Source: Solicola gregarius (GTDB lineage Bacteria > Actinomycetota > Actinomycetes > Propionibacteriales > Nocardioidaceae). Taken from it: 64,000 nt of DNA. The DNA lies in the NCBI RefSeq assembly GCF_025790165.1, contig NZ_CP094970.1:2914001-2978000 (forward strand). The letters are read 5' to 3'. A program made the position numbers and the translations under genes. Below, in pieces: positions 3,696 to 47,016 of this stretch. Within the stretch, counting starts at the first letter, position 1, and the number at the start of each line of letters is the position of its first letter. The notes beneath the pieces were generated by a model. It saw nothing but the letters and a program-made list of their open reading frames with translations. It did not search any database and was not told where the DNA came from.

Positions 3696-3758
3696 CCGTG
3701 GGCATGACGTTCGGGCGGAGACACACGGCGTGTTGCCGCCCGAACGTCATGCCCACGG
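3696..3758. repeat. Perfect 23-bp inverted repeat with 17-nt palindromic loop
   Basis: Arms 3696-3718 and 3736-3758 are exact reverse complements; the 17-nt loop (3719-3735) contains ACACACGGCGTGT. It separates two convergent genes and could terminate both. The loop resembles the GACACGCCGGCGTGTC core of the element at 4868, so I read it as a variant of the same nested-palindrome family with different stems. Confidence 0.85.
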
Positions 3759-4861: not shown

Positions 4862-4867
4862 GCCCCC

Positions 4868-4926
4868 GTGGGCCGCACGTTCTGGAGCGACACGCCGGCG
4901 TGTCCCCGCACAAGCGTGCGGCCCAC
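4868..4926. repeat. Nested-palindrome repeat, copy 1
   Basis: Outer stem GTGGGCCGCACG (4868-4879) with CGTGCGGCCCAC (4915-4926); inside is the perfect 16-bp palindrome GACACGCCGGCGTGTC (4889-4904). Flanking GCCCCC and GGGGGC can extend the stem. It lies between convergent genes and could terminate both, but the same element recurs at 11408 and 12537, the latter in a divergent setting. Confidence 0.85.
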
Positions 4927-11407: not shown

Positions 11408-11478
11408 CGCCCCGTGAGCCGCCCGCTCGTGCGGCGACACGCCGGCGTTTCCCACAAGAGCGTGCGGCCCACGGGGCG
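11408..11478. repeat. Nested-palindrome repeat, copy 2, at the 3' end of the first DUF559 gene
   Basis: Outer arms 11408-11427 and 11459-11478 pair at 18 of 20 positions; the core GACACGCCGGCGTTTC lies inside. It ends one base before the stop codon of the minus-strand nuclease gene. It aligns in direct orientation with the copy at 12537 with about eight differences over 61 positions. A short GTGAGCCGCCCG duplication sits on its left side. Confidence 0.85.
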
Positions 11479-11479
11479 C

Positions 11480-12469
11480 TCAGTCCCAGCGGCGGCCGGG
11501 AGGCCAGGTCCGCCACCACGCCGGCTTCTCGGTCGTCCAGGTTTGCCGACCCATCGAGTGCGCACGCTCGAAACCCAGCCGGAGCCGTTGCCGGGTTTCA
11601 GGACGCTCGCTGCGGCTGAGCTGGGCCGAGCCGATACGCACCACCGCCGACCCGTGGTTCTCCAGCGCTTCTTCGCGGACGTTGTCGGCATTGTGTACGC
11701 CGATGTCGCGGTGGTCGCCGCCATCGGACTCGATCACGAGACCCGAGTCGGGATCGAGCAGGTCGGGGATCCCAAGCAGCTTCTCGCGTTGGTCGAACAC
11801 CGGCACGTTGACGTGCCAGGTCTCGATGCCGAGAGTCTCGGTCGCGAGGACGCGGGTACGCGTCTCCCAGGGGCTTGCCGATCTGGTGCTCAAGTGAGCG
11901 AGTGCCCATCGAGCCTGAACCCGACCCCGAGTCTTCACGTGCGCGTCGAAGACGGCTCGTACGTTCCCGGCCGCTGTCCGGGCTTGCTCGATGATCGTGC
12001 TCGTCGCCATTTCGACCGCCACCAGGGCCTCGATGCGGTTCGGTGCGTCCAGCATGTCGTCGTAGGCCGCGCGGGCGATGGTCGCGACGACGACGTCGTC
12101 GAGGTCAACCACCTCGCCGGGGACCCAACGCCTCTCGCGCGGTCGTGTGCCTGGCTGGCGGCGCAGCCGAGCGCCAGGGCCGCACAAGAACGTCACCGGC
12201 AAATCCTTGCCGTACCGTTCGCCGTCGCAATAGGCCTGGCCCTGCAGCCATCGCGATGCCCACCCGGTCAGCACGCAGCCGTCGGTCATCAACCCGAGGG
12301 CGTCGGCGATTCGGGTGGCGGGCTGGTCGATGGAGATTCCCGCAGGGCGACGCAGCCCGCGAAAGGGGGTCTCGTACTGCTCGCCCCGAAGAGCCCACGC
12401 GGTAACACCGTCGTCGCGAAGCCTGGACGTGCGTCGGGTCAGCTGGGGGACGTACGAAATGTCGCGCAT
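11480..12469 (-). CDS. DUF559-type (Vsr-like) endonuclease domain protein, cassette 1
   Basis: 329 aa. The C-terminal half fits a PD-(D/E)xK/Vsr-like nuclease of the DUF559 type: Glu202 in [11 protein letters not shown], Asp236 in [11 protein letters not shown], then Glu247-x-Asp249-Gly in [10 protein letters not shown]. The N-terminal half, about residues 1-190, resembles the regulator-like domain usual in actinobacterial members, but has no clear partner toxin next door. ATG 12469 has no Shine-Dalgarno and may be leaderless. The gene is bounded on both sides by hairpins of one family, and its leader shares motifs with the gene at 45979. Codon use is somewhat less biased than that of the ribosomal genes around it, consistent with transfer. 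Confidence 0.7.
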
Positions 12470-12536
12470 ACTGGCAATGTGCCGCCGCGGAACTCGATCG
12501 GCGCGCGTATCCACAGGCACGCACAGCCCAATCTGC
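12470..12536 (-). promoter_or_regulatory. Conserved leader of nuclease cassette 1
   Basis: On the minus strand, reading towards the gene: CAGATTGGGCTGTG (12535-12522), TGTGGATAC (12515-12507, one mismatch to the DnaA box complement TGTGGATAA), TCGAGTT (12497-12491) and CATTG (12479-12475), then ATG. The same blocks in the same order precede the nuclease gene at 45979. Confidence 0.7.
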
Positions 12537-12593
12537 TGAGCCCCACGCTCGTGCGGCGACACGCGGGCGTGTCGCACAACAGCGTGCGGCTCA
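12537..12593. repeat. Nested-palindrome repeat, copy 3, upstream of the first DUF559 gene
   Basis: Outer arms 12537-12549 and 12581-12593 pair with one mismatch; the inner stem GCGACACGC (12556-12564) and GCGTGTCGC (12567-12575) is perfect with a GG loop. Here the flanking genes diverge, so a simple terminator role does not explain it. It ends 5 bp before the rplJ -35 box. Confidence 0.85.
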
Positions 12594-12598
12594 CGGAT

Positions 12599-25321: not shown

Positions 25322-25382
25322 GGAGTTCGCGGACTTTTCGGTGCTGGGTACGCCGTGCACCACCGAAAAGTCCGCGAACTCC
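25322..25382. repeat. Perfect 22-bp inverted repeat with 17-nt loop after the mce operon
   Basis: Arms 25322-25343 and 25361-25382 are exact complements. The loop length equals that of the element at 3696, and the complement of the loop shares CACGGCGT with it. It lies 13 nt after the last mce gene, so it may terminate the operon, though no U-run follows. Confidence 0.85.
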
Positions 25383-45777: not shown

Positions 45778-45792
45778 TCTAGCGACCAAACC

Positions 45793-45831
45793 AAGGGCCC
45801 CGAAATCCGCTCCGCGGGTTTCGGGGCCCTT
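45793..45831 (+). terminator. Terminator after tuf
   Basis: Perfect 13-bp stem AAGGGCCCCGAAA (45793-45805) with TTTCGGGGCCCTT (45819-45831), 15 nt after the tuf stop. Confidence 0.9.
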
Positions 45832-45850
45832 GTCTATGGTGCGTCGAACC

Positions 45851-45912
45851 CGCCGAGGTACGGATTCCTGCCAATAGAAGTGGCCCTAGTGGCAGGACGA
45901 CGTACCTCGGCG
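45851..45912. repeat. 62-bp hairpin element, left copy, bracketing the second DUF559 gene
   Basis: Outer stem CGCCGAGGTACG (45851-45862) with CGTACCTCGGCG (45901-45912); inner stem CCTGCCA (45867-45873) with TGGCAGG (45890-45896). Aligned to the reverse complement of the element at 46953 it matches at about 49 of 62 positions without gaps, including TGCCAATAG and a 23-nt right end with one difference. Confidence 0.88.
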
Positions 45913-45978
45913 AGTAGTTCAGCCAGATTGGGCTGTGGATAACCGCTTTCGCAGGTCGAGTTGCGCCATTGTTCTCCC
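45913..45978 (+). promoter_or_regulatory. Conserved leader of nuclease cassette 2
   Basis: CAGATTGGGCTGTG (45924-45937), overlapping TGTGGATAA (45934-45942, exact complement of the DnaA box TTATCCACA), TCGAGTT (45956-45962) and CATTG (45967-45971), then ATG 45979. The order and blocks match the leader at 12536-12470; the total length differs by one base (66 and 67). Confidence 0.7.
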
Positions 45979-46929
45979 ATGCCGGTGATCAAGGACATTC
46001 CACCCGAGCTCAAGACCGAGCCCGTACTCGAAGCCGATGCGCGCGCTTTTGGATTGACGACGAAGTTGCTCCAGCGCTCCGGATTCCGTCACGTGCACCG
46101 TGGCGTCTTCGTCTGGCGCGGACTGGAGGACTCTCCCGAACTGCAGTACGACGCCGCGCAACTCACGATGGACCGGATCGCGCTCGCGTCTCACCAGACC
46201 GCCGCGCAACTGCACGGTCTTCCGGTGCCAGGGCCCAAGACACCGCACTTCTGGCTTCCGGAAGGCGAGAAGGGCCGAGACACCCGTGGCCTCCATGTGC
46301 ACTGGTACAAAGTCGGCCAGGTACCGGCGTACACGATGGTCGACAACCGTAGAGCAACAACGATCGGCAAGACGTTCGTCGACCTGGCGACACAGCTCGG
46401 GTTGTTCGACCTTGTGGCTTATGGTGACGCTGCCATCAAGCGACCGGGCGTCACGATCGACCTCCTTCGCCAGCTGTCCCTCGAGCGTGGGCGCCGCCAC
46501 ATTCGCAAGGCGCGCCAGGCCGTCGATCTCATCCGTGACCGCGTGGACTCTCCGCCCGAGACGCACCTGCGCCTGCTCATGCTGCTTGCAGGGCTGCCCG
46601 AGCCGAAGGTGAACCTCAAGGCGTACGACGCGGCCGGCGAATGGATCGCGACGCCGGATCTGAGCTACCCGGAGGTGAAGCTCGCGATCGAGTACGACGG
46701 CAGCCATCACGGCCGGCGACGTAAGCAATGGAAGCGCGACGTCGATCGCAACGCGATCTACCTCGACAACGGTTGGATCGTCATCGTCGTACTGGCGGAG
46801 CACCTGTACCAACGCCCCCATCTGCTCCTCGACCGAATCGTCGGTCACCTGCGCGATCGTGGCCTCCCCGATCTGCCCGACGTGCTCAGTGGGGCATGGG
46901 AGCCGTACCTGCGTGAGATCCGCAATTGA
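45979..46929 (+). CDS. DUF559-type (Vsr-like) endonuclease domain protein, cassette 2
   Basis: 316 aa. N-terminal half (about 1-185) looks like the regulator-like part of AbiEi/DUF559 proteins, with GFRHVHRGVFVWRG and ASHQTAAQLHGLPVPG. The C-terminal nuclease part has Glu194 in DSPPETHLRLL, Asp227 in ATPDLSYPEV, and Glu238-x-Asp240 in LAIEYDGSHH, fitting a PD-(D/E)xK fold. No AbiEii-like toxin is adjacent. ATG 45979 is preferred over TTG 45961. There is no Shine-Dalgarno. It is bracketed by inverted copies of a 62-bp hairpin, 66 bp upstream and 23 bp downstream. Confidence 0.72.
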   Translation: MPVIKDIPPELKTEPVLEADARAFGLTTKLLQRSGFRHVHRGVFVWRGLEDSPELQYDAAQLTMDRIALASHQTAAQLHGLPVPGPKTPHFWLPEGEKGRDTRGLHVHWYKVGQVPAYTMVDNRRATTIGKTFVDLATQLGLFDLVAYGDAAIKRPGVTIDLLRQLSLERGRRHIRKARQAVDLIRDRVDSPPETHLRLLMLLAGLPEPKVNLKAYDAAGEWIATPDLSYPEVKLAIEYDGSHHGRRRKQWKRDVDRNAIYLDNGWIVIVVLAEHLYQRPHLLLDRIVGHLRDRGLPDLPDVLSGAWEPYLREIRN

Positions 46930-46952: not shown

Positions 46953-47016
46953 CCGCCGAGGTACGTCGTCCGGCCACCAGACGGCGCCCTATTGGCACGA
47001 GTTCGTACCTCGGCGG
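46953..47016. repeat. 62-bp hairpin element, right copy (inverted), bracketing the second DUF559 gene
   Basis: Perfect 13-bp stem CCGCCGAGGTACG (46953-46965) with CGTACCTCGGCGG (47004-47016). In reverse complement it aligns with 45851-45912. Both ends share the same outer stem, so the pair gives the gene terminal-inverted-repeat-like borders. Confidence 0.88.

Follow-up and report, generated by a model that had tools for sequence, protein, structure and literature searches.

The two nuclease genes described here probably belong to a REP-like family of repeats, in which each gene, together with palindromes of its own, forms a coding unit, and in which the leader of the gene is a leaderless promoter carrying a box for a shared regulator. 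The family is a large actinomycete one of DUF559-type nucleases with cognate palindromes. Both genes lie in the window, by which we mean the whole stretch of 64,000 nucleotides analysed here, and their features are collected in Table 1. An earlier note had singled out the two genes by their leaders and had set aside their "different hairpins"; the hairpins are indeed different, and they are the main feature of the system.

Table 1. Features of genes 1 and 2 and of the recognised solo palindromes in the window
Feature	Position in the window	Strand	Remark
Gene 1 (316 aa)	45979..46929	+	AbiEi-like head and Vsr/EDxHD nuclease domain (predicted)
Upstream palindrome of gene 1	45850..45914		cognate family CCGCCGAGGTACG...CGTACCTCGGCG; from paired-base count
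Downstream palindrome of gene 1	46953..47015		same family as the upstream one of gene 1
Box CTGTGGATAAC of gene 1	45933..45943	+	TGTGGATAA within it reads as a perfect DnaA box, TTATCCACA, on the reverse strand
-10-like CATTGT of gene 1	45967..45972	+	6 nt 5' of the start codon; putative leaderless promoter
Gene 2 (329 aa)	11480..12469	-	same family; C-terminus weakly matches DUF559
Upstream palindrome of gene 2	12537..12596		family CCGTGAGCCGCACG...CGTGCGGCTCACGG
Downstream palindrome of gene 2	11415..11474		same family as the upstream one of gene 2
Box CTGTGGATACG of gene 2	12506..12516	-	from comparison of homologous leaders
-10-like CACATT of gene 2	12476..12481	-	from leader alignment
Solo palindrome	3696..3758		family flanking the paralogue L036 (G000:C1:3667776)
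Solo palindrome	4866..4925		family of gene 2
Solo palindrome	25322..25382		family flanking L102 (relative G001)

The two proteins are only distantly similar, as the earlier note had said: BLASTP aligns 69 residues at 35%, and there is little similarity elsewhere. Both give weak C-terminal matches to DUF559 and MTES_1575 that fall below the Pfam cut-offs, and NCBIfam gave no match. An AlphaFold2 model was made of the gene 1 product only (mean pLDDT 93.9). Among the matches listed from the fold libraries searched, residues 2-186 of this model align with the AbiEi structure 6y8q (Z 12.5, rmsd 7.0, 179 residues aligned), residues 191-296 with the homing endonuclease I-Bth0305I (3r3p; Z 12.1, rmsd 2.4, 96 aligned), and residues 189-295 with Vsr bound to DNA (1cw0; Z 9.7, rmsd 2.5, 100 aligned). 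In profile comparisons, the nuclease domain matches 3r3p at an E value of 0.022 and the related 3hrl at 7.7e-6. Residues E238, D240, H244 and D254 are invariant across 46 sequences, in the pattern E-x-D-G-x-x-H ... D, and we take them to be the catalytic residues of the EDxHD/Vsr superfamily. The predicted fold and these residues place the gene 1 protein in that superfamily of nucleases, and the model gives its head the AbiEi fold.

Homologues were collected by querying 78 genomes with each protein and fetching further loci, and 125 loci were read. L033 and L038, which had no tblastn match, were read by hand, and L034, which is the same place as L039, was dropped from the counts. An independent replicate set was taken from named contigs; its 80 loci included 7 duplicates and 5 that were too short, leaving 68 usable.

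A family gene typically has a copy of its own locus-specific repeat, mostly a palindrome, on either side. When the 200 bp upstream and the 200 bp downstream of the same gene are compared, a matching repeat with a score of at least 12 is found at 105 of the 125 loci, compared with 21 of 374 mismatched upstream/downstream pairs; the corresponding figures in the replicate set are 57 of 68 loci and 7 of 201 mismatched pairs. The same comparison gave no match around 18 other open reading frames of the window and one around 26 SAF-domain genes. At the threshold used, 20 of the 125 and 11 of the 68 loci lack a flank match. Long inverted repeats (score at least 12) occur upstream at 56 and downstream at 52 of the 125 loci and in none of the three controls (0/125, 0/124 and 0/125); note that the scores are ungapped, so that bulged hairpins are underestimated. 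Many of the upstream palindromes end about 60-70 bp 5' of the start. This genome (G000) contains at least 11 family genes; for 9 of the 11 counted, the repeats on the two sides match; L032 has a repeat downstream only, and L033 upstream only.

At some loci (L099, L104, L110, L149, L150, L153 and L155), an array of tandem direct repeats stands upstream and an inverted one downstream; the L099 type is found at ten further places in this genome. L032 (G000:C1:481189-482016), an 84% identical homologue of L102, has neither a box nor an upstream palindrome, and the palindrome downstream of it is one of the kind that flanks L102. Over all loci, similarity of palindromes and similarity of proteins are uncorrelated (Spearman -0.002). 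Close proteins do have palindromes in common more often (18 of 62 pairs of the highest similarity bin, and 2-8% of pairs in the other seven), a result that shared descent alone could give.

The palindromes also occur away from the genes, and the window contains three such solo copies that were recognised. The two palindrome families tested abound only where the cognate gene occurs. In particular, the arm CCGCCGAGGTACG of the gene 1 palindrome has 50 copies here; G001, whose orthologue of gene 1 is 69% identical, has 29, and 47 other genomes have 0-9. A control with the reversed pattern gives 0-3 per genome. G006 and G022, in which the best homologues of gene 1 are 46-48% identical, have 2 and 0 copies, respectively. 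The arm CGAGTGGCGCAGAT of another unit has 17 exact copies here, mostly within palindromes of 59-60 bp with sharp edges, and 20 in G014, and is absent from 42 of 49 genomes. Among the seven genomes that contain it, G000, G001 and G014 hold a family gene flanked by that class of palindrome, and G030 holds one (L154) flanked by a shorter variant; the other three have no recognised cognate gene, yet contain a few exact arms (4 in G006, 1 in G022 and 1 in G061). A joined query of eight palindromes of this genome's own loci found extra copies for gene 1 (five), gene 2, L036, L099 and L100; the palindromes of L031 and L037 had no copies outside their own loci among the 40 of 269 candidates that were scored, and for the same reason all copy numbers from this query are lower bounds.

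Three paralogues of this genome correspond to three palindrome types, and each of the 14 solo copies compared fits one type best, although likeness to a type was what had led to 13 of these copies and an unbiased scan to one. We placed 38 solo copies relative to genes called by a simple codon score; these were the copies fetched by earlier searches rather than a random sample. Thirty-five are intergenic (14 between convergent, 19 between tandem and 2 between divergent genes), and 3 overlap a predicted gene; 28 of the 38 lie within 35 bp of the 3' end of a gene. For comparison, 10% of the intergenic bases of the window are convergent and 23% divergent.

Transposition of the whole unit was considered for G014, where three pairs of palindromes stand about 850-900 bp apart. 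What the pairs enclose are not DUF559 genes; they are presumably genes for a transposase, for a membrane protein and for a VapBC-like pair. At L252 of that genome, a transposase gene that we take to be IS30-like stands between two arms of a CGAGTGGCGCAGAT-type palindrome, and at L253 a gene pair that we take to be VapBC-like stands between two CGAGTGGCGCAGAT-type copies. A viral source of the family was also sought: 600 stretches of viral_contigs matched a pattern, and none was confirmed as a relative.

In the two palindrome families that were aligned, the arms are 23-29 bp long and the palindromes about 60 bp. Among nine palindromes of the gene 1 type, 8 of 27 base pairs are changed on both sides, and the covariation is 0.185 vs 0.084 in shuffled alignments, none of 500 shuffles reaching it. 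In the 20 copies of the CGAGTGGCGCAGAT family, the covariation is slight (0.099 vs 0.086, reached by 27 of 500 shuffles). Exchange between the arms could also produce such paired changes. In the alignment of L185-L209 (A3), where columns 16-17 face columns 50-51, one pair of the stem is mismatched in 15 of 20 copies, and the pair beside it is G-T in 11 of 20. Vsr enzymes act at T-G mismatches, so a G-T pair in the stem beside a mismatch may matter for recognition.

The leaders of the family have a box in common. In the interval from -140 to +60 around the expected start, TGTGGA or its reverse occurs at 111 of the 125 loci, compared with 6 loci that have it in the downstream 200 bp and 5 that have it within the gene; in the replicate set the core is upstream at 54 of 68 loci, and is found at 1 downstream, at 4 inside the gene and at 1 of 66 far upstream. 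The proposal that the leaders hold a common site resembling a DnaA box is supported by these counts. The replicate set includes 14 loci that lack the core, 11 of which are from Mycobacterium (L316, L325, L333, L334, L339, L340, L343, L344, L346, L347 and L351), and 9 of these 11 retain matching flanking repeats at a score of at least 12. When both sets are pooled (193 loci, interval -110 to -5), the core is present at 158 loci, forward at 108 and reversed at 57, with 7 loci counted under both directions. Each direction has its own preferred distance from the start: -45 to -50 for forward sites (89 of 109) and -56 to -59 for reversed ones (45 of 74). The consensus is CTGTGGA followed by Y, R, R and C, most boxes read CTGTGGAYRRC or its reverse, and the C before TGTGGA is 92% conserved among forward boxes. 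Usually there is a single box; in some loci a second one stands about 28 bp from the first. In 87 start-aligned forward leaders, A occurs at -11 in 71% and T at -7 in 74%, which gives a CAnnnT-like -10 element at -12 to -7. Because this element stands six bases before the start codon, we infer that the family leader is a leaderless promoter. The earlier note would have taken absence of the pattern from other DUF559 genes of the genome as a refutation; of the 11 family genes read here, 10 have the core near its usual place, 7 forward and 3 reversed, and L032 is without it.

For the two leaders themselves, the earlier note had claimed four shared blocks, namely the 14-mer CAGATTGGGCTGTG, GTGGATA, TCGAGTT and CATTG. 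All four are present, and in both leaders the last three follow one another in the order given; of the four, only the one that belongs to the box is conserved among the homologues. Of 89 homologous leaders in which the box is forward, 2 have an exact TCGAGTT and 4 an exact CATTG, so neither is conserved, CATTG being one form of the -10 element; ATTGGGC just 5' of the box occurs in 5 of 89. The identity of the 14-mer in both leaders is confirmed by exact copies at 45924-45937 (+) and 12522-12535 (-), which are also the only 2 matches in the whole window at up to two mismatches. Shuffled sequences gave a mean of 0.28 such matches, with two or more in 6 of 100 shuffles, and the genome-wide count of exact copies is at least 2. 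The 14-mer of gene 2 stands 3' of the upstream palindrome and 5' of the box, with a second CTGTG after it. Because the CTGTG inside this 14-mer is not the CTGTG of the box, the 14-mer as a single conserved functional block is ruled out.

Two readings of the leader are not supported. One is that it serves the mobilising machinery: the core is missing within about 120 bp of all 32 solo palindromes checked, and the box was rejected as a part of the mobile repeat. The other is that it is specific to the nuclease. CTGTGGAYRRC occurs 26 times in the genome, compared with 24 for the reversed pattern, so it is not enriched genome-wide, and it also stands away from family genes, which 6 of the 26 precede. 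Elsewhere, the start of a SAF-domain gene and that of a DinG-like helicase gene have the box about 47-50 bp 5' of them; the distance is about 42 bp at a DUF4192-like gene and larger at a second SAF-domain gene; these names were assigned by reading translations and are our assumption, as is the view that the SAF-domain genes are CpaB-like. The first SAF-domain gene has matches in 26 of 30 genomes, and the core is found in the 120 bp upstream of 19 of the 26 orthologues (L362-L387), inside 1 and far upstream of 1. Because these orthologues also carry the core, the box would mark a regulon, to which, in this genome, the DinG-like helicase and DUF4192-like genes may belong.

Its position and conservation suggest that some protein binds the box, for which DnaA is one candidate. 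Binding by DnaA would tie expression of the genes to the initiation of replication, and it would be compatible with the REP-like reading as a whole; we regard it as a tentative proposal with somewhat less than an even chance. The DnaA-box 9-mer is exact in the leader of gene 1 and has one mismatch in that of gene 2. Family boxes read on the reverse strand include both TTATCCACA and TTGTCCACA, which are tabulated as high-affinity DnaA boxes in the part of PMC4285127 available to us. A dnaA gene, sought first at the contig ends, where none was recognised, was located at 2.008 Mb of the contig, and TGTGGATAA and TGTGGACAA sites adjoin it. The role of DnaA is weakened because of the additional conserved C, which precedes only 1 of the 6 TGTGGA sites found directly upstream of dnaA and in the dnaA-dnaN interval. 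Unlike a DnaA box, moreover, the family box is usually single, and its register and distance are those of a promoter element, or it is reversed; the genome-wide count, little different from its control, also tells against this candidate.

The palindromes themselves admit of other readings. They might be operators, the AbiEi-like head repressing its own promoter at the upstream repeat and the solo copies being operators of other genes. The likeness of the head to 6y8q (with the large rmsd given above) and the position of many upstream palindromes, 60-70 bp 5' of the start, fit this, and AbiEi antitoxins bind inverted repeats in their own promoters and thereby autoregulate, according to the portion of PMC7319586 that we could consult. 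As a full account we consider it unlikely, in view of the matching downstream copy that most genes also have and of the solo copies, 33 of 38 of which are between convergent or tandem genes. The arms, moreover, are longer than the usual operator half-site. It is possible that the upstream copy acts as an operator, and this need not exclude the REP-like reading. That the hairpins are transcription terminators or 3' hairpins of mRNA, kept by the host and only incidentally placed around the genes, agrees with their length and with the many solo copies directly after stop codons, and is nevertheless improbable: a separate terminator-like hairpin (45792-45832) follows tuf ahead of the gene 1 palindrome, two palindrome families track the nuclease gene across genomes, and the other open reading frames of the window lack matching flanks. 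We give as little credence to a role in defence or restriction, as an AbiE-like or REase-like system with incidental palindromes. PADLOC does match gene 1 to AbiEi at 3.4e-10, and one of the two matched Pfam nuclease models has a restriction-type domain in its name; against this, gene 2 has no PADLOC match at an E value of 0.1, and the 11 family genes of this genome are diverse, 9 of them with matching repeats on both sides.

The REP-like reading is favoured by the flanking repeats, the solo copies, the co-occurrence with the gene in two families, the paired arm changes in one and the predicted fold. By analogy, the protein would recognise, cleave and bring about the copying of its palindrome in the following way. 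The box, about 48 bp (about 57 bp when reversed) 5' of the start, together with the -10 element, would put the family genes under a regulator common to other genes. The AbiEi-type head would recognise the palindrome of its own unit, which may then be in hairpin or cruciform form, and the nuclease would nick or cut at or near it. Repair or replication would then copy the palindrome to new intergenic sites, as has been proposed for RAYT/REP. No Y1 transposase (Y1_Tnp, PF01797) was found in six genomes at an E value of 0.001, which rules out a RAYT as the mobiliser in those six.

Repeats of the REP palindrome kind are common in bacterial genomes. The chances are about even that Actinomycetes have a second, independently evolved REP-like system, in which an EDxHD/Vsr nuclease with an AbiEi head multiplies the palindrome, each paralogue has palindromes of its own, and the genes share a box that is perhaps controlled by DnaA; such a nuclease may be the missing enzyme of REPs without a RAYT. 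If this is true, a different nuclease family with cognate palindromes suggests that the strategy arose more than once, and DUF559-type proteins gain a role. In the open-licence PMC literature covered, as far as its text was available, no dedicated REP enzyme other than RAYT is named, and no description of DUF559 genes with flanking palindromes was found. One large class, the CGTC REPs, is apparently without a dedicated transposase according to the part of PMC3733652 available.

Compared with known proteins, the catalytic domain has the predicted fold of I-Bth0305I and of the Vsr nickase, and differs from both in that the gene 1 protein is fused to an AbiEi-like head, free-standing and flanked by palindromes. 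The head, about 186 N-terminal residues, has a fold in common with AbiEi, the antitoxin of a type IV toxin-antitoxin system; unlike AbiEi, the protein carries a nuclease domain, and its repeats are on both sides of the gene and dispersed. The closest likeness in architecture is to the REPtron, which also has a gene flanked by its own palindromes. Solo copies that are intergenic and near the 3' ends of genes (PMC3733652), and a gene whose presence is tied to the abundance of a repeat with changes in both arms (PMC2817692, PMC3733652), are further points in common, as far as the accessible parts of these papers go; it was from the same architecture that the link between RAYT and REP was drawn (PMC2817692, likewise in part). 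Unlike in the REPtron, the enzyme is AbiEi-like and Vsr-like rather than a Y1 HUH transposase, one solo family aligned (20 copies) has no conserved bases, such as a GTAG-type tag, outside its arms, and the palindromes of the two aligned families are about 60 bp long vs the 20-40 bp given for REPs in the literature available to us. On this comparison, the architecture is like that of a REPtron in which an unrelated nuclease takes the place of the transposase.
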